Below the pieces are notes generated by a model. The model saw nothing but the letters and a program-made list of their open reading frames with translations. It was not told where the DNA came from and made no database searches. This document shows positions 467 through 38,990 of a stretch of DNA of 38,990 nucleotides, in pieces. This DNA comes from Bacteroidota bacterium. Lineage in GTDB: Bacteria; Bacteroidota; Ignavibacteria; Kapaibacteriales; UBA2268. The stretch covers positions 1 through 38,990 of the forward strand of contig JAKAKE010000068.1 in the NCBI GenBank assembly GCA_021824625.1, written 5' to 3'. The translations under genes were made by a program, and so were the position numbers. How positions within the stretch are numbered: position 1 is the stretch's first letter; the number at the start of each line of letters is the position of its first letter.

Positions 467-988
467 ATGTCATTAGATTTAGAAGTAAAAGAAGAGGCGC
501 TTTTAACAGGCGAATCAAAGGCTGTTTGTTCACATGTTTACGATCTGGGAATTCAGGTTAGTACTTTCAACGGAAAAGATATTGAACAGCATAAAATCAT
601 GATCATGTTTGAATTGGAAAAACGAAGTAAGGAAACAAACAGAAGATTTCTTGTTAGCAAAGAATATACGCTTTCCAGTTCAAAACGGTCAAATCTCATG
701 AAAGATCTGGAATCATGGCGCGGAAAACCGTATGCAGTCGGCGATAAAATCGATGTTACAAAACTCATCGGAATCAATGCCAACCTTACAATCTCAGAGA
801 ATGATAAAGGGTTTCCTCTCATCGATAAAATTCTACCGCCAACCGGTGAAACTTTAAAAGCAGAAGTCAAAAGCGACTTTATGCCAGATTGGGTTTGGAA
901 AAAGATCCAACAGGGAAAATTTGAGAATCAAAATCATCTTAACCCATGGGCTGAAGAACAGAAAAACGATGATAAACCACCGTTTTAA
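467..988 (+). CDS. Probable phage single-stranded DNA-binding protein
   Basis: 173 residues, start preceded by AGGAGG at good spacing. The C-terminus is acidic and ends DDKPPF, like the DDDIPF tail that SSB proteins use to recruit partners. The body is a likely beta-rich fold. It resembles the phage replication protein family sometimes labelled NGO0469-like. It sits directly downstream of a RecA-like (Sak4-type) ATPase and the repeat gene and just upstream of Gp157, a typical recombination/replication block. SSB is inferred from the tail motif and neighbours, not from a recognised OB-fold motif. Confidence 0.6.
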   Translation: MSLDLEVKEEALLTGESKAVCSHVYDLGIQVSTFNGKDIEQHKIMIMFELEKRSKETNRRFLVSKEYTLSSSKRSNLMKDLESWRGKPYAVGDKIDVTKLIGINANLTISENDKGFPLIDKILPPTGETLKAEVKSDFMPDWVWKKIQQGKFENQNHLNPWAEEQKNDDKPPF

Positions 989-1006
989 ATGATTAAGGAG
1001 GAATAA

Positions 1007-1504
1007 ATGCAGCTCTACAATATTGATAAGATGCTTGAGGATCTCTTTGACGAAATGGACAAATATGCTGAGGAACATGAAGGCATAGTTGATCAATCTT
1101 ATGTCGAACTTCTTGATATGCTCAATATGGCAAAAGATGAAAAGATTCTTAACATCGCAAAATATATGAAAGGACTTGACGTTGAAATAAAAGCCTTTCA
1201 GGAAGAGATCAAAAAACTTCAAGCAAGAAAATCAGCAATTGATAATAAATACGATTATCTTCACAATTATATTTGCAATCATGCTGATAAAGGTAAAAAA
1301 ATCCAGGACTCAACAACTGTTGTTTCATGGCGAAAAAGTGAACAGGTTGTTGTTGTTGATGATGTTGATGGATTACCGGAAATTTTTGTAAGAACCAAAA
1401 CCGTCAAAGAACCTGACAAGCAATTGATAAAAGAATCTTTCAAAATGGGAAATGAAGTTCCAGGGGCAAAGATCGTTGAAAACATGAATCTACAGATAAA
1501 ATAG
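1007..1504 (+). CDS. Siphovirus Gp157-family protein
   Basis: 165 residues with an AAGGAGGAA ribosome site. The order of parts matches the Gp157 family: a short acidic N-terminus, a central coiled coil (IKAFQEEIKKLQARKSAID), then a beta-rich C-terminal domain with a VVVDDVDGLPEIFV core and the closing EVPGA segment. Gp157 has been linked to phage resistance in Streptococcus thermophilus; its biochemical role is unsettled. It usually sits among SSB, recombinase and nuclease genes, as here. A strong terminator follows at 1517-1565. Confidence 0.8.
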   Translation: MQLYNIDKMLEDLFDEMDKYAEEHEGIVDQSYVELLDMLNMAKDEKILNIAKYMKGLDVEIKAFQEEIKKLQARKSAIDNKYDYLHNYICNHADKGKKIQDSTTVVSWRKSEQVVVVDDVDGLPEIFVRTKTVKEPDKQLIKESFKMGNEVPGAKIVENMNLQIK

Positions 1505-1516
1505 ATTTATAAATTA

Positions 1517-1565
1517 TTGATCTTATCTGTAAAAGTTTACCGATAAGATCAATTAAATTTTTTTA
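1517..1565 (+). terminator. Rho-independent terminator after the Gp157 gene
   Basis: Perfect 11-bp stem TTGATCTTATC (1517-1527) with GATAAGATCAA (1542-1552), a 14-base loop, then a run of seven T from 1558. It lies 12 bases after the Gp157 stop and before the next gene's AGGGAGG site. It probably lowers expression of the genes that follow. Confidence 0.85.
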
Positions 1566-1581
1566 AAGGGAGGCTAATTAT

Positions 1582-1932
1582 ATGTATGAAAAAATTACAC
1601 TTGAAAATCTGAAAGGCGGTATTGTCGAGGAACGATTTCAGTATGAATTAAACAGGGTTCTGGAAAACATTTCCGATCCAAATACCGATCACAGAAAGCC
1701 GAGAGAAGTCAATATAAAACTTGTCTTTAATTCGGATGAAGAGAGGGAAAACATTGCGTTTTCTCTGGTTGTGACATCAAAACTTGCGCCGGTAAAAACA
1801 ATTGGCGGAAAACTTGCGTTATCGGCAGCAGGTGAGCAACCCGGATTATTCCAGGAAACATCAAAGGAAATTCCTTTGCCAATACCTGAAAATAATCAGG
1901 AATTAAAGATTGGAGGATTAAATGTTAGATAA
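1582..1932 (+). CDS. Phage replication-terminator-like protein
   Basis: 116 residues, ribosome site AGGGAGG. It resembles small phage proteins annotated as replication terminator protein: an N-terminal GG(I/A)xEERFxxELxxVLENIxDPNTD motif, then a strand-rich region with TSKLAPVKT. The DPNTD segment is at about residues 32-36. Such genes occur near Gp157 and SSB in phages of Firmicutes and others; actual replication-fork arrest activity is not shown. It overlaps the next gene by 11 bases, suggesting translational coupling. Confidence 0.6.
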   Translation: MYEKITLENLKGGIVEERFQYELNRVLENISDPNTDHRKPREVNIKLVFNSDEERENIAFSLVVTSKLAPVKTIGGKLALSAAGEQPGLFQETSKEIPLPIPENNQELKIGGLNVR

Positions 1933-2644
1933 AAGTTTTATTGAAAAAATTGAAGACATGGTAAAAGAATCAACAGTAGAAATTGATGGAAAAACTTTTG
2001 CCAGAGAAAAACTAAATCCTATAAAAGATTACGATAATATTGATCCTATTAAAGCGCAAACACTGACGGCTCTTATTGACTATATCGATTCTCAACCAGA
2101 TCCAAAAATATCGGATTTGATAATTACTATTGAAAATGAAAAATCCGTAAAAATCATGTCAAGTCTTACAGGCTGTTTTAATGAAAGAATCTGTTTTATG
2201 GAAACAAAATATAATGAACCAAAAAGAGAAATGGATAATTTTATTTCATTGGAACGGTTTATTGTTATGTGTATTTCAAATTTCAAAATGAATGAAGATT
2301 TACAAAAAGTTCTTATACTTCTCTCCAAAGTCACAGATTCAAATATTAAAACTATTCTTGATGACGGAATAACTCAGCAGGTAAATATCAAAGCCGGGAT
2401 ATCAATGGAAGGAGAAGCGAAACTTCCTCCAATTGTTTCGCTTATTCCATACCGGACATTTAGTGAAATTGAACAACCTGAAAGCAAATTTCTTTTAAGA
2501 GCAAAAAAAGTTGATGACGAAATTAAATATGCTCTTTTTGAAACCGATGGCGGAGCATGGAAAAACGATGCAATATCAAATATTAGAAATTGGCTGCTTT
2601 CACAATTATCATTGATAAACAAATCAATAGTAATTTTGGCATAA
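1922..2644 (+). CDS. DUF2303-like phage protein
   Basis: 240 residues, starting inside the end of the previous gene with GGAGG nearby. The C-terminal half carries PYRTFSEIEQPESKFLLR and an LFETDGGAWK segment, which I associate with the DUF2303 (YfdQ-like) family of phage proteins. Function is unknown. Neighbours suggest an early role beside the replication genes. Confidence 0.55.
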   Translation: MLDKSFIEKIEDMVKESTVEIDGKTFAREKLNPIKDYDNIDPIKAQTLTALIDYIDSQPDPKISDLIITIENEKSVKIMSSLTGCFNERICFMETKYNEPKREMDNFISLERFIVMCISNFKMNEDLQKVLILLSKVTDSNIKTILDDGITQQVNIKAGISMEGEAKLPPIVSLIPYRTFSEIEQPESKFLLRAKKVDDEIKYALFETDGGAWKNDAISNIRNWLLSQLSLINKSIVILA

Positions 2645-2657
2645 TCAGGAGAATACA

Positions 2658-2996
2658 ATGATAATTGCAGTTGATTTTGATGGAACTATTGTCGAACATC
2701 GTTTTCCTGCTATAGGACCGGAAAAACCTAATGCCTTACAGACATTGAAACATCTTCAAGGTCAGGGCCATAAAATTATAATTTGGACTTGCAGGGAAGA
2801 TTCATACATTGAAGAAATGAATATTTGGTTTAAAGAAAAAGGATTTAAGCCTGATGCAGTCAACCATAATTTTGATAAAAAATTGAATTTCGCCAGACAT
2901 AAAATATATGCTGACATTTACATTGATGACCGGAATCTGGGTGCGATCATCGACTGGTCAAAAATTGAGAATGAACTAAAAAGGATTAAGTTTTAA
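2658..2996 (+). CDS. Small HAD-superfamily hydrolase
   Basis: 112 residues. Motif I is DFDGT (D6, D8), motif II is the Thr of IIWTCRED (T44), and the acidic motif IV is IDDRN (D90-D91); a Lys-containing helix precedes it. There is no cap insertion, as in the compact BT0820-like HAD group. Predicted Mg-dependent phosphatase, substrate unknown. The ribosome site is CAGGAGA. The gene sits one base before the nuclease gene, so the two are probably co-translated. Phage HADs can process nucleotides or DNA 3' or 5' ends; that role is only a guess here. Confidence 0.75.
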   Translation: MIIAVDFDGTIVEHRFPAIGPEKPNALQTLKHLQGQGHKIIIWTCREDSYIEEMNIWFKEKGFKPDAVNHNFDKKLNFARHKIYADIYIDDRNLGAIIDWSKIENELKRIKF

Positions 2997-7350: not shown

Positions 7351-8409
7351 ATGGAAATACGACTATTGTCGCTTTTTAAGCGGTCTGACAGGAGATACTA
7401 TACTGCGGAATATGAATTAAATCAACAAAAACATTCAGTAAGTCTCAAAACAGACAATGAAAAAGAAGCCTGGGAAAGATGGCATAAGATTGCAAGATTC
7501 TATGATGAAGACAATATCTTAGTTGTAAAAAAAATCAATCTCGATCTTGCATTGAATGAATTTATTTTATCACGTGATAAAACAATTCAGGAAAGTACAA
7601 AGGTCTCAGATAAATATCGAATAAATTTTTTCAGAAATTATTTTAAAAAAAATAATATTATTGACACAAGTCAACTTGATGAATCATTTATAGATAATTT
7701 TTTCTCGAATCTTAACAATAAGGATTTATCCAATAAAACAATAAATAATTATGTAACGGTATTGAATATGTTCTTTAAGTTTTGTGAAGAAAAAAAATAT
7801 ATCCGGATTATATTTAATCTAAAAAAGTTCTGGAAGAAAAGAAAAAAAGAAAAGATAAAAATAATCGATATAAAAGAAGCCCGATTTATTATTGAAAAGA
7901 TAAAAGAAATTCAAAATATAAAAATTAAAACATTTCTACTTTTCCCGTTTTTCACCGGATTACGGCATTCGGAAGTCAGAGGATTGAATCGGAAAAACAT
8001 TGATTTTAAAAATAGAATTATCTCGGTTTGCGAAAAAATGACGGTTGGAAATAAAAAGCCAATATCATTATTGAAGTCAAAAGCAGCGTATCGCAAGGTT
8101 CCTATAATGAAGGAATTCGAAGTGTATCTTAAAGAATACCTGGACTTTAATAAAAACGAATATCCTTTTATCTCAATGTCAAACGATGCTACAATGTGGC
8201 ATATCAGCAAACTGAATAAAGATCATAAAACTGCTTATAACTTTCATCAAGGAAGGCACTTTTTTGCATCGCTTTTAATCGATAATAAATTCAGTATGAA
8301 AGAAATACAAACCATTCTCGGACACGAAAATATTTCAACTACCCTTGATACTTACGGGCATCTTATCCGGGAATGGGATATTAAAAAGTTCGATGATATT
8401 GATTTTTAA
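7351..8409 (+). CDS. int: Tyrosine recombinase integrase
   Basis: 352 residues. An N-terminal arm-binding region (1-60) is followed by a core-binding SAM-like domain (about 65-155) and a catalytic domain (170-345). Catalytic residues visible: R205 (TGLRHSEVRG), H299-R302 (FHQGRHF), H325 (LGHENISTT) and nucleophile Y335 (LDTYGHL). No ribosome site precedes the ATG, and the promoter places transcription start at the codon, so the message is effectively leaderless. It integrates and probably excises the phage at attP 7116-7308. It converges with the tail genes. Confidence 0.93.
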   Translation: MEIRLLSLFKRSDRRYYTAEYELNQQKHSVSLKTDNEKEAWERWHKIARFYDEDNILVVKKINLDLALNEFILSRDKTIQESTKVSDKYRINFFRNYFKKNNIIDTSQLDESFIDNFFSNLNNKDLSNKTINNYVTVLNMFFKFCEEKKYIRIIFNLKKFWKKRKKEKIKIIDIKEARFIIEKIKEIQNIKIKTFLLFPFFTGLRHSEVRGLNRKNIDFKNRIISVCEKMTVGNKKPISLLKSKAAYRKVPIMKEFEVYLKEYLDFNKNEYPFISMSNDATMWHISKLNKDHKTAYNFHQGRHFFASLLIDNKFSMKEIQTILGHENISTTLDTYGHLIREWDIKKFDDIDF

Positions 8410-23705: not shown

Positions 23706-23849
23706 TTACTTATCCTTCTTTTCTATTTTTACTTCATAGGTATTCGCGCATTTTGTTACAAGTAAAGTTGTGCAAGAGCCAATTCCTAAACACAATATGA
23801 TTATAACAATAGCCAATATACAAAGCCCTTTACCTAAACCTTCGTACAT
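23706..23849 (-). CDS. 47-residue membrane peptide
   Basis: Translates as MYEGLGKGLCILAIVIIILC... with one membrane segment (about 9-33) and a basic Lys-rich end. Strong ribosome site AAGGAGAAAAAC before the ATG. Spaced one base before the next membrane gene and 10 bases after the portal stop. A Cys follows the hydrophobic stretch (GSC), so a lipid anchor is possible. Unknown function. Confidence 0.65.
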   Translation of the reverse strand: MYEGLGKGLCILAIVIIILCLGIGSCTTLLVTKCANTYEVKIEKKDK

Positions 23850-23859
23850 GTTTTTCTCC

Positions 23860-25878
23860 TTATACCGCTATCCAGACGCATCGACAGCGATTACCGCCTT
23901 TATGTCCTTCGCATTCATCATTGATACCGTAACCGCCCTTATCAAGGCTCAGGCCTTCAACACCGTTTTTTATCTCTGTTATCGTATATTCAAGGCCGTC
24001 CTTCCCGGCGCATACATCACAAAGATTTTTATCAAGAATTGCCGAATAGACAAACGCCAGTTCAGGCATATCCTCGGCGACAAGTTCCATCTGAGTATTT
24101 CGCCCGGCATTATAGGAAGACTCGACAATTTGTTCAAGATCGGAGCGGTCCCGTTTGAAAAATGTTTCATAATGCAGTATAAACTGTAGTGATCCTCGAT
24201 CTGTGATTTTATTGCCGAGCCTGTCTATATCCTCTTCAACTTTATATTTCAGTTTTTCATAGAGGTTATCGATTTTCTTATTTATTTGTTTGTCGTATTT
24301 GACAACCGTTTTTGTCTCAAACTCATATTTTTCAAGTTTTGTTTCTTTTTTTACTTTCCCGATTTCTTTCAGCATATCCTTCTTGCCCCGGTCAAATCCT
24401 TCACCGTATAGAACTTTCAAAGCGTGTATGTATTCGGCATGATACGGGATATTTATTTCAGTCTTGCCTTCCTCGATTTGCGAATAAATCGATTCCAGAA
24501 CCTTTTTATACATGTCATTGACAAGTTTTGAGGCCTTCTCAGCCATTGTTTCATAATGTTCAACGGCGCTTGATAACTCAAAGTTTTTTGTTTTTCCAGA
24601 TTGAACTGAAAATAACTGCTTCTTTAAGTCACCTTCATCATCCGCTTTCTTTTCATCATCCTTTTTTTGTATCTCTGTAAGGTCTATTGTTGGCATTCCG
24701 AACAGAGACCTCAACCACACCTGATCTTCAGGTGTAAAGTTCAATATATTTGCCATTTTTTGCATATTTGCGGACACAGCATCAAGGTCAGCTGATGTAT
24801 AATTTATCTTAACCTGCGGATACTCATCATCCTGAAATCGTCCTGCATAAGGCGACATTTCAATAATTTCTTTGATCAGTTGATTGTCATTATCCTCGAT
24901 CTCTTTTTTAGCGGCCTGAATTGACAACTCGTAAATGGTTTTAACGGTTTTTGATGCCGCAAAAGAGCCGGAAGAATTCACGCCAATAGTCGTAAACTGT
25001 GATGATGTCAAAAAAAGCATCTGTTTATCACAATACTCAAGCATCGGAGGAATATTCCCAAGCATTGTAATCTGTTCCAGGGTTATCTCGTAAATACCTT
25101 CCTGACTTGACATATAGACATTGTCTTCAATGGTTATATTTCTTGCCATTGTTTCGATTTTCTTTTTAATAGTATCATCGATTGTTTTTTTATATTTAAC
25201 ATGTGGGATAAATCCGCCTTTGACCGCCGATTTTCCGAAACCTGTTATCAATTTATCTTTGAGAAGATAAAATTTTCTTGCCGGCCGTAAGATCGGAGAT
25301 CCGTTCGGGTTTTCGAATTCCGAATTGTATGAATATAACCATAAATTATCTATTTCAATATCCACGTAAGACGATGATTTGTTCGGAATATTTTTAATGT
25401 GTTGAACTCCGGACAATTCAATTCCCTTATAGTTCCACATATTCACTGTATCCGGTTGGATCGGTGAAAGTTTACCGTATATCGTTGTCGGTTTTCCGTT
25501 ATAATCTGTTGATTCCTTAACTTTTTCAAAGAGCGCAAAACCATAGTCAAGCGCAAGTAGTTTGTGCCGCTTATAGTTTTGATAGTTGACTTTTTCCAGC
25601 CACCATGACAGGTAATCGATTACTTCCTGGTCTTTTTCTTTCATGTCAATGCGATAATCCGCTAAAACAAGCGGCATTTTCATAATACGGAGGCTGGATG
25701 CTGCAATACAATCACCGTTTCTCATCCGGGTAATATCCTGAATAAGCGTCTCGGTAGAAAGATCATCATAACTGCTTTGACGGATTTTACCGCCTGATAC
25801 CATTATTCCGGGCGCGCTTTTTTGAGAATCTGTTTGAGTATTTGTGTTTTTAGCATACAGTCTTTGTTTTCTTGACAA
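23860..25878 (-). CDS. Portal protein fused to a MuF-like domain
   Basis: 672 residues. Residues 1-450 match the Mu gp29-like portal (DUF935): QSSYDDLSTETLIQDITRMR, LDYGFALFEKV, SPILRPARKFYLLKDKLITGFGKSAVKGG and TIGVNSSGSFAASKTV. A charged linker is followed by a C-terminal region (about 540-672) with the MuF head-morphogenesis signature: AYSAILDKNLCDVCAGKDGLEY-type Cys pair and closing GGNRCRCVW. In Mu these are two genes (29 and 30); here one chain. The fusion gives the portal its own interior MuF domain. Confidence 0.85.
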   Translation of the reverse strand: MSRKQRLYAKNTNTQTDSQKSAPGIMVSGGKIRQSSYDDLSTETLIQDITRMRNGDCIAASSLRIMKMPLVLADYRIDMKEKDQEVIDYLSWWLEKVNYQNYKRHKLLALDYGFALFEKVKESTDYNGKPTTIYGKLSPIQPDTVNMWNYKGIELSGVQHIKNIPNKSSSYVDIEIDNLWLYSYNSEFENPNGSPILRPARKFYLLKDKLITGFGKSAVKGGFIPHVKYKKTIDDTIKKKIETMARNITIEDNVYMSSQEGIYEITLEQITMLGNIPPMLEYCDKQMLFLTSSQFTTIGVNSSGSFAASKTVKTIYELSIQAAKKEIEDNDNQLIKEIIEMSPYAGRFQDDEYPQVKINYTSADLDAVSANMQKMANILNFTPEDQVWLRSLFGMPTIDLTEIQKKDDEKKADDEGDLKKQLFSVQSGKTKNFELSSAVEHYETMAEKASKLVNDMYKKVLESIYSQIEEGKTEINIPYHAEYIHALKVLYGEGFDRGKKDMLKEIGKVKKETKLEKYEFETKTVVKYDKQINKKIDNLYEKLKYKVEEDIDRLGNKITDRGSLQFILHYETFFKRDRSDLEQIVESSYNAGRNTQMELVAEDMPELAFVYSAILDKNLCDVCAGKDGLEYTITEIKNGVEGLSLDKGGYGINDECEGHKGGNRCRCVWIAV

Positions 25879-26331: not shown

Positions 26332-26531
26332 CCCTTTACTTCCTGTAATTTCCTTCGTTCTTTCTTACTCATTCTAATTTTTCGCTCTTTGCGGATCATC
26401 TGCCCGTTTTTAAGAATAAGCATATCAGCCGTTTTGCCGATATATTTATACTTAATTCCGCAATGAGGACATTTAAGAAGGCGGGTTCCTTCCGGTACCG
26501 CGATCTCATGTTTGCATTTTTCGCATTTCAT
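26328..26531 (-). CDS. Zinc-ribbon protein (Com-like)
   Basis: 67 residues. CEKC (3-6) and CPHCG (21-25) form a zinc ribbon; a basic tail follows (RKERKIRMSKKERRKLQ). Size and layout resemble the Mu Com family of RNA-binding zinc fingers, also seen near terminase genes in Mu-like phages. There is no mom-like modification gene in the window, so the target would differ. Overlaps the large terminase stop by four bases. Confidence 0.6.
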   Translation of the reverse strand: MKCEKCKHEIAVPEGTRLLKCPHCGIKYKYIGKTADMLILKNGQMIRKERKIRMSKKERRKLQEVKG

Positions 26532-27826
26532 ACAATAAACCCCTTATATTCAAACTCATCTTCATAATCATCTTCAATAACCTTGCCGGATGGAATAGAA
26601 GACATTGCCGTGTTCATATCGGTGAGTTCTTCAATTGCATACCTGCAAGCGGCAATTCCGTCATCTTTAAATGATACAGGCTCATCCAAAGGATTCCCTT
26701 CTTTATCTTCCTTCCACTTAAAAGAACCTACTTCATTTGCAAGTCCTGGGCATTTACTTGGATCTATTATCCAGGTACCGCGGTTTAAAAACCCTATCTG
26801 TGTTTTAACACTGTCTTTCCCTTTAACCGCGCCTGTTACATCATACCCGGCATTTGACCACTCTTTGATTGACTTCGGTTCTGCCGAATCTGCCGTACAA
26901 GGTTGTTGTTTTAATAAAACCTGCTTTTCTTCATTTGCTGCAATGATTTCATTATTTGTCATATACCTGACATACAATTCAGCAAATGAATACTTTACTC
27001 CGTCCTTTATGCCTATCAGTTCGATCGCATGATAATGATTGTATCCAAAATCCATACCAGCATAAACATGATCAAAATCCCAATATCCGTACGGGCAAGT
27101 ATCGAACTTAACATTTCGAAAAACAAGATTTCCAATAGATCCCCAATTCCCCAAAGCGTATATTTCGTAATATACTTTATCCTGAAATTCGAGTTGTTCA
27201 AGTTCCTGTCTATATTCTTTATCAATGAACCTGTTATCAAGATAAGTCGATTCGTGGATTATTGCCCGGTCACGCTTTCCGCCGACATTATCAAAAAAAA
27301 CTTTCTTCAACCAATGAGTATCCGATACGGGATTAAACATCATTGTCATCTGAAAAGGCTGTTTTGCCTGCCCTCTCAAGCGCAAATTAAGACCCATGAA
27401 ATCTTTTTCAGTGGCCTCTGTTGCTTCCTCGATTATTATATCTGTCAAAGGTCCGTTATCAAATGTTATGGACTTAACTTTTTCTATGTCGTCAAGCCCT
27501 ATAAACTTCATCTGATTACCAGTTGCCAGGCTGGTAATTGTCTGGTTAGATTTGTTTTCTTTAAAAACAGGCCATAAGTTCCAATCCGATATACAGGCAC
27601 GCATGAGCGGTATAGTAGAAATTGAGTTTGTCACTCCATATTTTCTACATACCAAATAATTATGGCCTTTTTCTGCGGTCATCCTGTATGTTGCACATCG
27701 AAATGTATCAACGGATTTCCCGGATCCTGCTCCGCCTTTTTTTATTACAAATCTATGTCTATCAAACCAAAGCGGATAAAACTTTTTATTTACCCATTCC
27801 GGCAATGTTGAAAAATCAATATTCAT
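26528..27826 (-). CDS. Terminase large subunit (PBSX/Terminase_3 type)
   Basis: 432 residues. N-terminal packaging ATPase: Walker A GGAGSGKS (31-38), Walker B DIIIEEATE, coupling motif near MMFNPVS. C-terminal RNase H-like nuclease: AGMDFGYNHYHA (first catalytic Asp), CTADSAEPKSI (second), and DDGIAACRYAI (third). It powers DNA packaging and cuts concatemers. The ATG overlaps the small subunit's TGA. Confidence 0.92.
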   Translation of the reverse strand: MNIDFSTLPEWVNKKFYPLWFDRHRFVIKKGGAGSGKSVDTFRCATYRMTAEKGHNYLVCRKYGVTNSISTIPLMRACISDWNLWPVFKENKSNQTITSLATGNQMKFIGLDDIEKVKSITFDNGPLTDIIIEEATEATEKDFMGLNLRLRGQAKQPFQMTMMFNPVSDTHWLKKVFFDNVGGKRDRAIIHESTYLDNRFIDKEYRQELEQLEFQDKVYYEIYALGNWGSIGNLVFRNVKFDTCPYGYWDFDHVYAGMDFGYNHYHAIELIGIKDGVKYSFAELYVRYMTNNEIIAANEEKQVLLKQQPCTADSAEPKSIKEWSNAGYDVTGAVKGKDSVKTQIGFLNRGTWIIDPSKCPGLANEVGSFKWKEDKEGNPLDEPVSFKDDGIAACRYAIEELTDMNTAMSSIPSGKVIEDDYEDEFEYKGFIV

Positions 27827-28362
27827 TCAAACTTGGCATCCTCCGGTTTTGGCGGAGTGCCGATAGTTATGTTATTGATAAAATTCACATCTGCCTGTTT
27901 GATAAGTCCCATGTATAAAGTCAGTTGTTCAAGAGCCTTTTCCCTGTTTGCAAGTTTAATAACTGTATATGTATCACCTGATTTTGTAGGTCTGGTTTCA
28001 ATACCATCAATTACCCTTACATTGTCACCCAGGTCTTCGAGCCGCTCAACTTTTAAGGCTCCGTCTTCTGTTAAAATATCTGAAGTGTTATAGAAAGCCC
28101 TGATCTTATATGTTTTGATAATTTCAAACTCCAGGGTATCTTTATACTGTCCTAGGATTTCATCAAGATACGCTTTTATGCCGTTTCTTATTTCAGCATT
28201 CTTCAACATTCTTCCGGCCTGTGTCCCCGCTCCTTTTTTTGAATAACCGGCGATTATTGCTGCCTGAGAACCGTTAAAACCATTATTGCAATATTCTGCA
28301 ATAAAAAGGATTTCGCGTTCATTTAATTGTCTTATTCCTTTATTTTTAGGCTTTCCTTTCAT
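27823..28362 (-). CDS. Terminase small subunit
   Basis: 179 residues from the ATG at 28362 (ATGA with the endolysin stop; a GTG 18 bases earlier is possible). Terminase_2-like: N-terminal LNEREILFIAEYCNNGFNGSQAAIIAGYSKKGA is the DNA-binding helix-turn-helix, followed by AGRMLKNAEIRNGIKAYLDE and a C-terminal oligomerisation segment. It recognises the packaging start; no cos or pac site can be located by eye. Confidence 0.88.
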   Translation of the reverse strand: MKGKPKNKGIRQLNEREILFIAEYCNNGFNGSQAAIIAGYSKKGAGTQAGRMLKNAEIRNGIKAYLDEILGQYKDTLEFEIIKTYKIRAFYNTSDILTEDGALKVERLEDLGDNVRVIDGIETRPTKSGDTYTVIKLANREKALEQLTLYMGLIKQADVNFINNITIGTPPKPEDAKFE

Positions 28363-28886
28363 TTCCGCTTTCCTAACCACTTTATGGCGTGATCAAACGG
28401 ATCAACAGCGAATTGCTGGTTAAGAAATCCGTTCGAATTATAAAGCCCTTTCAGGCCGCCTTTATCATAAATAAGTGTACTTTCAACAAAATAAACACCG
28501 AGATGAAAATGAATCGGTGCTATGCCTCTAAACCCTCCGGAATTTCCGGAAAAGGCTACAATGTCACCGGGTTTTAATGGTTGTCCGAGTTTTACTAATA
28601 TCTGAGAAAGATGACCTCCGAGATAAAAAAGCCTCCGATCTGTTATATCTTGAATAACCAGGCATTTTCCGTATCCATCCGGACGTTCAACGGCTGTTAT
28701 GACATTTCCGTTTATATTGCATTTTACTTTTGACCCGTAAGGAGATGCTTCATCATATCCTTCATGTTTTGTATATATGGCATTTGGAACAGTCGAATAA
28801 TCTTCATTGAATTTTCCTTCGCCGATGATATTATGTTTTTTGTCATATACCCGAACCATTTCAAATCCAGTTGTCAGTGGTAACAT
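28359..28886 (-). CDS. M23-family endolysin (zinc metallopeptidase)
   Basis: 175 residues. Zinc ligands of the LytM/M23 fold: H41 and D45 (HEGYD), HxH at 126-128 (PIHFHLGVYF); a further His at 92 (GGHLSQI) is the usual catalytic helper. The GDIVAFSGNSGG loop is typical. No signal peptide, so it needs the holin for export. It would cut peptide crosslinks in the cell wall. Its ATG overlaps the TAA of the upstream membrane protein (TAATG). Confidence 0.85.
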   Translation of the reverse strand: MLPLTTGFEMVRVYDKKHNIIGEGKFNEDYSTVPNAIYTKHEGYDEASPYGSKVKCNINGNVITAVERPDGYGKCLVIQDITDRRLFYLGGHLSQILVKLGQPLKPGDIVAFSGNSGGFRGIAPIHFHLGVYFVESTLIYDKGGLKGLYNSNGFLNQQFAVDPFDHAIKWLGKRK

Positions 28887-29374
28887 TAAGGGTGTCCTTT
28901 AAATAAAGTGCGAAAAAAAGTAAAAATCATTTTTCCAAATTCTCCAAAAATAGCCGTAAAGATTACTGTTGTTCCGAGTGCAATAGCTCAGATCCATTTC
29001 TTAAAATTTTCTTTGAATTCTTTTTTTCTGTTGAATTCATCTTCACATTTTTTGCGTCTTTCTGATGAACATTGATTTTTTTCAATTGCCGTAAGTCTTG
29101 ATTTCATGTCTTTTGCAAATTCCCGCCATTCGTTATCACGTGTCATCATGAGTTCAAAAGGCTTGTTGACCTTGTCAATTAACTCTTTGACGCTTCCATT
29201 CAATTCCCGGTAGTTTTCTGCAATATCATCAATACGCCGGCTTATTACTTCCATTGATAAACGGTCAAAGGGTTTCTCTTCTTGTTTTTCTATTTTTTCA
29301 ATTTCGATTTGAGAAATCCTTTCCATTTCGGCTTCCTCGATCTCTTCAATTGTCCGTTCAAAATCATTCATCAC
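28886..29374 (-). CDS. Coiled-coil membrane protein of the lysis cassette, interrupted by in-frame TGA
   Basis: Frame from 29374 gives 128 residues (acidic coiled coil ending KENFKKWI) to a TGA at 28990-28988. In the same frame a membrane helix follows (AIALGTTVIFTAIFGEFGKM, then IFTFFRTLFKGHP) to a TAA whose last base is the first of the endolysin ATG. The reading frame thus continues as a coherent C-terminal anchor of an XhlA-like layout (coiled coil then membrane segment). TGG to TGA (Trp) would explain it, as would readthrough. The full frame is 163 codons including both stops. Confidence 0.65.
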
Positions 29375-29621
29375 TTTTTTTCCTCAGGTCAATTACATTT
29401 TTTAATTTATATTTGATCTGATTTATAAGTTCATCAATGTATGTTTTAAGATCAATATTAAGTTTTGTTGATGTTTTCATGTATTCTTGAATTGTCATAT
29501 CATCACTTAGATCTGCAGTAGGGATATCATTGATAATGATAGGTTCTTCATATGATACACAGGAGAAAAACAAGATTATAAACAATGTAATAATTCCAAA
29601 TATAATTATAAGTGTTTTCAT
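29364..29621 (-). CDS. Outer-membrane spanin lipoprotein (o-spanin)
   Basis: 85 residues. Signal peptide MKTLIIIFGIITLFIILFFSC with lipobox FFSC (Cys21) gives a lipid-anchored protein; the rest is helical (DLKTYIDELINQIKYKLKNVIDL). Just after the i-spanin gene and overlapping it by four bases. In two-component spanins the lipoprotein binds the periplasmic part of the i-spanin and fuses the two membranes at lysis. Implies a diderm host. Confidence 0.65.
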   Translation of the reverse strand: MKTLIIIFGIITLFIILFFSCVSYEEPIIINDIPTADLSDDMTIQEYMKTSTKLNIDLKTYIDELINQIKYKLKNVIDLRKKSDE

Positions 29622-29878
29622 TTTTTTATCCCGAGATCATATTTTTTTAATATTGCAATAAAATCCTTGACTGTTTTTGCCTGATTAAGTTCATCATATG
29701 CCTTTTGTTGACGATCATACATTTCCTGTCGTTCAATATATTGTTCTTTAATTTTTACCAAGTCCGGTATTTGAGCGGCTTCTTTATTCAGATTTGATAT
29801 AATAAATGACAATATGATCACAGTAATAATAAGGCATGCATTTAATACTGCAGATGCAATCAAAATATATTTCATCAT
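29618..29878 (-). CDS. Inner-membrane spanin (Rz-like)
   Basis: 86 residues. One N-terminal membrane helix (about 5-29) and a periplasmic coiled coil (KEQYIERQEMYDRQQKAYDELNQ), the Rz-like layout. Overlaps the holin gene and the o-spanin gene by four bases each. Rz identity is inferred from topology and neighbours. Confidence 0.65.
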   Translation of the reverse strand: MMKYILIASAVLNACLIITVIILSFIISNLNKEAAQIPDLVKIKEQYIERQEMYDRQQKAYDELNQAKTVKDFIAILKKYDLGIKK

Positions 29879-30210
29879 TGCTTTGCCTCCGGGAAAAAAT
29901 GATCTTTAACATCTTTTGCAAGGTTCATTATATCTGTTGAATATCCCGAAAGAATTGTATTTATAATTGCATTGGTAATAACTATCTGAATGGTTAAACC
30001 CATAAATAAAGCAAAAACAACGGCAAAACTAATGCCGAGAATAAACGCCGTCAAGATAGTCCACATTTTTTTTAATTTTCCGTTATAGATAAGCAGGTTT
30101 TCTTTTAAAAGATGAGTAATTCCTATAACACCGATAATGGCGAAAGGATTGATTCCGTTTTCATATAATTTATCGAATATAGCAAAACAACCATTTATAA
30201 TATCCATCAT
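29875..30210 (-). CDS. Holin
   Basis: 111 residues with probably three membrane segments (about 18-36, 49-72, 74-95). Basic linker YNGKLKKM between the first two; the C-terminus is soluble and charged (LAKDVKDHFFPEAKQ). First gene of the lysis cassette, directly behind a late promoter. Ribosome site AAAGGAATTATTTT. Controls lysis timing by making holes that release the endolysin. Confidence 0.7.
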   Translation of the reverse strand: MMDIINGCFAIFDKLYENGINPFAIIGVIGITHLLKENLLIYNGKLKKMWTILTAFILGISFAVVFALFMGLTIQIVITNAIINTILSGYSTDIMNLAKDVKDHFFPEAKQ

Positions 30211-35870: not shown

Positions 35871-36020
35871 ATGTCAGGTTGTTATGGTGGATCAACAGAA
35901 GATCGGTATTTTGAACGAATTCTCAATGATTATCTTGATGAAGATGATGACGACGGCCTGGAACATGTTTCTGATGAAGATGAATCATCAATGTCCTATT
36001 TGACAGAGAAATTTTTATAG
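35871..36020 (+). CDS. Small acidic leader protein (49 residues)
   Basis: MSGCYGGSTEDRYFERILN... then DEDDDDG and a Ser/Asp-rich end, strongly acidic. First gene from PR, leader AGGACA similar to the repressor's. It ends in TAG (36018-36020), which overlaps the 5' end of the tRNA. Small DNA-mimic or inhibitor proteins have such composition; I only infer that. No family assigned. Confidence 0.6.
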   Translation: MSGCYGGSTEDRYFERILNDYLDEDDDDGLEHVSDEDESSMSYLTEKFL

Positions 36021-36090
36021 CGGGATAGTGTACTGGTAACACACCGGGCTCATAACCCGGAACATGCCGGTCCGAATCCGGCTCCCGCGA
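36019..36090 (+). tRNA. tRNA-Met (CAU), initiator-like, somewhat degenerate
   Basis: Cloverleaf: acceptor GCGGGA/TCCCGC (6 bp) with A1-G72 unpaired, D-stem GTGT/ACAC, anticodon stem CCGGG/CCCGG with loop CTCATAA (anticodon CAU), T-stem GCCGG/CCGGC with loop TCCGAAT. Three G-C pairs at the anticodon stem base and the open 1-72 pair are initiator features; a pyrimidine-purine 11-24 pair is not. T-loop position 55 is C instead of U. No encoded CCA. Could be a functional tRNA-fMet variant or a decaying or regulatory tRNA-like element. Confidence 0.65.
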
Positions 36091-36110
36091 ATCCGGCTCC
36101 CGCGAATCCG
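36075..36110 (+). repeat. Tandem duplication of the tRNA 3' end
   Basis: AATCCGGCTCCCGCG occurs at 36075-36089 (inside the tRNA) and again at 36090-36104, followed by AATCCG. The second copy is identical. Confidence 0.9.
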
Positions 36111-36744: not shown

Positions 36745-36831
36745 ATGAAAGGTTATCAATGGTTTTTACTTGTTTTGGTTTGCATTATTTTCTTTACGGG
36801 ATTATTTATGTTTCCTGTCTTTTTCAAGTGA
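36745..36831 (+). CDS. 28-residue membrane peptide
   Basis: Short basic start (MKGYQW), then one hydrophobic helix (FLLVLVCIIFFTGLFMFPVFF). Good ribosome site TAAGGAGAAGAC. Single-helix phage peptides of this size often modulate host membrane proteins; the role here is unknown. Confidence 0.6.
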   Translation: MKGYQWFLLVLVCIIFFTGLFMFPVFFK

Positions 36832-36843
36832 ACGGCGGATAAT

Positions 36844-37044
36844 ATGACGATTAAAGTAAATCTTACTGATAAAGACATTGAAGAACTGGTCAGGACAAAA
36901 AAACTTGAATTGAATGTCGAAATGAAACTTGAAAAGTATTATCCCCCGCTAACTCGGGAAACAGTCAATAAAATAATTGGAATAAAGCCGGCTCCCAAAA
37001 GGAACCGGCAGAAAAACAACCCGGCGTTGCCGGAAAATAAATAA
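36844..37044 (+). CDS. Small basic hypothetical protein
   Basis: 66 residues: MTIKVNLTDKDIEELVRTKKLEL... with PPLTRETVNKIIGIKPAPKRN and a basic Pro/Asn-rich tail. Weak ribosome site GGCGGATA. The tail may contact nucleic acid. No family recognised. Confidence 0.5.
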   Translation: MTIKVNLTDKDIEELVRTKKLELNVEMKLEKYYPPLTRETVNKIIGIKPAPKRNRQKNNPALPENK

Positions 37045-38474: not shown

Positions 38475-38990
38475 TGTGTAAATTTTTTAGCGCGATCATA
38501 ACAAAAGAAAATATTTATTTTGATTATGATCTGGATTCTCATGAAGACATAATAAAAAAATTCAATCTGGTTGAGGGTGAAATTCATCACGGCTTTAATT
38601 TTGTCAGAGTTGAATTAACCCCAAACGATGAAAATCTTTTCAATCATAATATGGATAATTGGTCATTGCATGTAGATCAAGATTATACTCCGGATTGGTT
38701 CAATCATGATCAAATAGAGGATGAAGTAAAAATTAAACTAAAAGAAGTGATTGAAAATCGTTTTGTTCTTGGAGAAATGAAAGAAATAAATCAAGGTAGA
38801 TGGTTTATCGGCGGTTCGGCAAGTGTGAACTACATCCGCGGTTCGGCAAAAGTAGACTCCATCGGCGGTTCGGCAAGTGTGAACTACATCGGCGATTCGG
38901 CAAAAGTAGACTACATCGGCGATTCGGCAAAAGTAGACTACATCCGCGGTTCGGCAAGTGTGAACTACATCGGCGGTTCGGCAAAAGTAG
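38474..38990 (+). CDS. N-terminal part of the 9-residue-repeat protein (open at the right edge)
   Basis: A unique N-terminal domain of 111 residues (MCKFFSAIITKENIYFDYDL..., ending EINQGRWF) is followed by six full repeat units and a 22-base partial one (38807-38990). Each unit is I-[GG/RG/GD]-SA-[SVN/KVD]-Y. The frame stays open to the last base. The N-terminal domain has a YTPDWF segment and an acidic helix; I recall related phage proteins in which this domain leads into similar repeats, but know no function. ATG overlaps the ATPase stop. Continuation is at bases 1-457 after a gap of four bases plus any number of 27-base units. Confidence 0.8.
   Translation, partial: MCKFFSAIITKENIYFDYDLDSHEDIIKKFNLVEGEIHHGFNFVRVELTPNDENLFNHNMDNWSLHVDQDYTPDWFNHDQIEDEVKIKLKEVIENRFVLGEMKEINQGRWFIGGSASVNYIRGSAKVDSIGGSASVNYIGDSAKVDYIGDSAKVDYIRGSASVNYIGGSAKV
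38807..38990 (+). repeat. 27-bp coding minisatellite, right block
   Basis: Six full 27-bp units plus a partial one, same sequence classes as at 2-316, with GGCGGT as an extra variant and one D-S exchange (38834-38860). Confidence 0.95.

Follow-up and report, generated by a model that had tools for sequence, protein, structure and literature searches.

A gene in the lysis operon of the window, the whole 38,990-nucleotide stretch of DNA analyzed here, is interrupted by an in-frame TGA, most likely the result of a nonsense mutation that arose recently; the product would have been an accessory lysis protein with a membrane anchor, one that the phage can probably do without since holin, spanins and endolysin are intact. 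The gene lies on the minus strand, with GTG at 29374 and ATG at 29371 as candidate start codons, and its N-terminal part (28991 to 29374) comprises 128 codons of a highly charged, helical protein ending in KKWI. The TGA (28990 to 28988; next base G, hence UGA-G) stands in frame with this upstream open reading frame, exactly where the sequence-only reading had located it. The same frame then continues through 33 sense codons with coding-like usage and a membrane helix (minus strand, 28889 to 28987; AIALGTTVIFTAIFGEFGKMIFTFFRTLFKGHP) and closes with a TAA (minus strand, 28886 to 28888) overlapping the ATG of the endolysin gene (28886 to 28884) by a single base, a junction that had likewise been described correctly. 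Besides the TGA at 28990 to 28988, this frame contains neither a stop nor a frameshift up to its TAA, so the interruption is either recent or the frame is still under selection.

Codon usage of the extension was scored as log-odds trained on 34 genes from the window and compared per 33-codon window. By this measure the 99-nt extension reached 0.217 per codon, against 0.233 ± 0.155 for real-gene windows and −0.239 ± 0.166 for out-of-frame readings; its score was attained by 0.36% of out-of-frame windows (the extension did better than 99.6%), and none of the remaining five frames across the stretch exceeded 0.06. It is very improbable that the 33 codons belong to AT-rich sequence between genes and are open merely by chance. 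Although 18% of 20,000 dinucleotide shuffles of the extension were free of stops at this length, 0.5% were stop-free and equalled or surpassed the extension in codon score, and 0.07% matched its hydropathy as well, a result to which the TAATG junction comes in addition. Reading through the TGA also converts the sole gap in the operon (+101 bp) into a 1-base overlap, the other junctions overlapping by 4 to 22 bases. Given the coding-like codon usage and the closure of this gap, the extension is the C terminus of the same gene, at present or until recently, and automatic annotation here splits a single lysis gene and loses its anchor. A second gene, in which the extension would be translated separately by reinitiation at an ATT just past the TGA to give a small membrane peptide, is improbable: a coding-like frame with a one-base overlap with the following start would suit it, but codons 1 to 19 of the 33 include no ATG, GTG or TTG, the sole ATG would yield 14 residues that miss the helix, and an overlapping frame that does contain an ATG (28997 to 28899) does not score as coding.

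The sequence-only reading had placed the gene in a lysis cassette, and profile searches agree with that setting. Immediately downstream, the endolysin gene (28359 to 28886, minus strand, as are all genes of this group) encodes a Peptidase_M23 domain (PF01551, E = 1.6 × 10−11) and has its own Shine-Dalgarno-like AAAGGA, which lies within the end of the upstream frame. On the other side of the interrupted gene is an 85-aa protein (29364 to 29621) with an N-terminal hydrophobic segment and a lipobox-like FFSC, a probable outer-membrane (o-) spanin on the basis of its anatomy alone. It is preceded by a probable inner-membrane spanin of 86 aa with an N-terminal transmembrane segment (29618 to 29878; weak match to the Rz-like spanin family phrog_739, E = 0.036) and by a probable holin, a membrane protein of 111 aa (29875 to 30210; weak match to phrog_1299, E = 0.02). 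All of these remaining lysis genes (holin-like gene, spanin-like pair and M23 endolysin) are unbroken. Past the endolysin follow the small (27823 to 28380; PF03592) and large (26528 to 27826; PF04466) terminase subunits.

Several other features of the contig were recorded in passing. A 27-bp tandem repeat, encoding in one reading frame a 9-residue unit similar to DSAKVDYIG, occurs at both ends (1 to 315 and 38807 to 38990), and because this repeat is identical at the two ends, the contig probably represents a circular phage genome (about 39 kb) that was broken within the repeat gene. The portal protein (23860 to 25878, minus strand) appears to be a fusion with a Mu F-like portion at its C terminus (Portal_Mu, E = 5.8 × 10−21; Phage_Mu_F, E = 0.0039, which falls below the cut-off of that family), and between it and the next gene lies a 47-codon frame that is not among the listed ones and encodes a strongly hydrophobic segment (23706 to 23849, minus strand). 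The phage carries an integrase-like gene (7351 to 8409), and a tRNA-Met on the plus strand (36018 to 36110) is continuous at its 3′ end with a 15-bp repeat (CGAATCCGGCTCCCG) present in 2.5 exact copies, possibly a recombination or attachment site. Also on the plus strand (36745 to 37044), a membrane peptide of 28 residues is terminated by TGA (36829 to 36831) and its frame continues to an ATG (36844) and a charged protein of 66 residues; this junction of membrane and soluble parts at a TGA is explainable as two genes.

With its TGA translated as Trp, the interrupted gene would encode a charged, helical protein whose C terminus forms a membrane helix, the N-terminal domain probably being a coiled-coil. 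The maximum hydropathy over 19 residues is 1.47 for the residues after the TGA alone and 1.71 when a Trp in place of the stop and the residue before it are counted in, which puts the TGA at the membrane end of the helix and not ahead of it. The sequence-only reading was therefore right that a membrane segment follows in the same frame, and slightly overstated the case in calling this helix clean. A single-sequence AF2 model of low confidence (mean pLDDT 61.7) predicts one helix over residues 104 to 143, passing through residue 129; the combination of a soluble helical N-terminal part with a single C-terminal transmembrane segment requires readthrough of the TGA. The sole lysis family touched by the protein was phrog_689, with a match that spans the TGA when this is taken as Trp and falls short of significance (E = 0.013 for a 99-aa fragment, 0.075 for the full protein); in the PHROG profile search it was absent with Ala or Gly at this position, and the three substitutions (Trp, Ala and Gly) gave matches that did not point consistently to any one residue. 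This family (PHROG 689, “holin”) we take to be XhlA-like, a label that draws in part on its matches in the Bacillus subtilis and Lactococcus lactis controls. Pfam XhlA gave no match to the interrupted protein, so that no significant profile match assigns it to the XhlA type, while its surroundings are those of such a gene, with M23 directly downstream and a holin-like gene (itself a weak match) upstream.

Relatives of the interrupted protein (TGA as Trp) were sought widely. None was found in IMG/VR, GTDB species genomes, INPHARED or PLSDB, nor in 395 genomes of the phylum plus five related phage records, and 198 related genomes returned only weak, chance-like matches. An exact DNA pattern across the TGA with any third base had zero matches, and with the endolysin and the holin as bait no homologous cassette was retrieved. 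The terminase as bait did identify related phages (68 to 72% identity), but the regions fetched from them held no relatives of the lysis genes; just one record (L133) had a weak match to the endolysin, and it was set aside, its cassette being a different one. A scan of 88 related loci for lookalikes with a coiled-coil and a tail anchor produced none that was convincing. In one related phage (L009), the large terminase frame of 765 aa (548 to 2845, plus strand) contains an insertion after GAGSGK that resembles an intein.

The possibility that TGA is recoded in the phage or its host, as Trp or as selenocysteine at this codon, can hardly be entertained. A recoded phage would be expected to carry an in-frame TGA in a late gene for lysis, as seen here, but TGA terminates 21 of the 50 gene-like open reading frames listed in the window (∼40%, with the interrupted frame counted in) and is thus a normal stop codon here. 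The host genome, a draft of 231 contigs and 3.58 Mb that is 96% complete and includes the window as one contig, contains 45 tRNAs by covariance search, one of them in the window, and typing with ARAGORN, which covered this list, found no UCA anticodon among them. The view in the sequence-only reading that global recoding is unlikely thus holds, as neither phage nor host has a UCA tRNA. A suppressor tRNA was rejected on the same ground, there being no UGA-reading tRNA in either. Decoding of UGA by a tRNA-Trp with a 4-bp anticodon stem has been described (PMC13092985); this was rejected as well, because the host tRNA-Trp(CCA) is canonical with a full 5-bp anticodon stem. Selenocysteine at the TGA was also rejected, as neither SelB nor tRNA-Sec was found over cut-off in the 96% complete draft. 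The best SelB match and a second one, each at the end of a contig, are pieces of EF-Tu, whose gene is split between two host contigs.

Functional leaky termination, in which the UGA is partly read (mostly as Trp) to give soluble and anchored forms in a ratio useful for lysis timing, appears unlikely. In its favour are the unbroken, coding-like extension frame, the position of the split exactly at the boundary between soluble and membrane parts, and the stop context: of the stops in a reporter library in E. coli, TGA leaked most, and readthrough rose when a G came next (PMC11126739), which makes UGA-G a leaky context by that study. The older work reviewed in PMC5289835, on the other hand, names UGA-A and UGA-C as leaky bacterial contexts, and UGA-G is not among them. 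TGAG, moreover, also ends three other TGA-terminated genes of the window. No stimulatory mRNA structure was detected 3′ of the TGA (fold against shuffles, z = −0.22), there is no suppressor tRNA, and no homologue shows conservation. The proposal that programmed readthrough tunes lysis through two forms of the protein accordingly gained no positive support, since neither a downstream structure, a dedicated decoder nor a conserved homologue was found, only a +4 G that is leaky by one E. coli study. We regard as doubtful, too, the specific case of a double-stranded DNA phage with a deliberately leaky UGA-G bordering a membrane helix, producing mostly soluble and a minor amount of anchored lysis protein through the ordinary tRNA-Trp of its host. 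Basal misreading of UGA may nonetheless yield some full-length protein.

Another explanation is a consensus base error in the assembly, in which case the true codon would be a sense codon and the gene would encode one ordinary protein of 162 residues. The host assembly is a draft of many contigs and one codon alone breaks the frame, both of which would fit such an error, but substitution errors in a consensus are rare, and we consider this not likely.

A nonsense mutation, the first of the options offered by the sequence-only reading, is best supported, with coding-like sequence continuing in the same frame past an ordinary stop. Under this scenario, the gene at 29374 to 28886 would formerly, or until recently, have produced a protein of about 162 residues with a charged, probably coiled-coil domain and a C-terminal anchor, until a nonsense mutation placed a TGA where the soluble part meets the membrane helix. 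Ordinary translation would now give a soluble fragment of 128 residues and little or no anchored protein, and basal UGA misreading may still supply a little full-length protein. The phage can probably afford to lose this accessory part because the remaining lysis set is intact, the endolysin with its own ribosome-binding site included. Since the searches returned no intact homologue, we infer rather than observe the ancestral state and the direction of the change, and the same applies to its recency, the function of the protein and its dispensability. Two further points weigh against a mutation: an undamaged extension frame is equally expected under functional readthrough, and the rest of the phage is without clear decay, so that a defective element need not be invoked.

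As a broken accessory gene, the locus is of minor importance and serves as a warning about annotation that splits a lysis gene. If the stop were leaky on purpose, it would be an unusually simple means by which a DNA phage balances soluble against anchored lysis protein, needing neither recoding nor a suppressor tRNA. A broken gene is nothing unusual, which limits the interest of the case, and the two-form reading has nothing positive in its favour besides stop context and position.

Compared with known systems, the locus resembles nonsense-interrupted phage genes in having a single in-frame stop with an otherwise intact frame downstream, and differs from them in having no known intact relative for comparison. 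With stop-codon-recoded phages (Crassvirales and others; PMC11210395) it shares an in-frame stop in a late gene, but there is one clear case on the whole contig, TGA is a common terminator and a suppressor tRNA is lacking. The inferred full-length product is like XhlA-type proteins (Bacillus PBSX XhlA; PMC5589764) in being small, with a soluble, charged helical N-terminal part and a single C-terminal membrane helix, and its gene likewise adjoins holin and endolysin genes; it differs in its nonsignificant profile match, the missing Pfam XhlA domain, the broken frame and a cassette with spanin-like genes of Gram-negative type. The cassette itself is arranged like the two-component spanin cassettes of phages that infect Gram-negative bacteria (PMC6139136), in which the gene for a transmembrane protein overlaps a following one for a lipobox protein and genes for a holin-like protein and an endolysin lie close by, whereas the sequence matches here are weak and an extra gene, for a coiled-coil protein with a membrane anchor, stands between the spanins and the endolysin.
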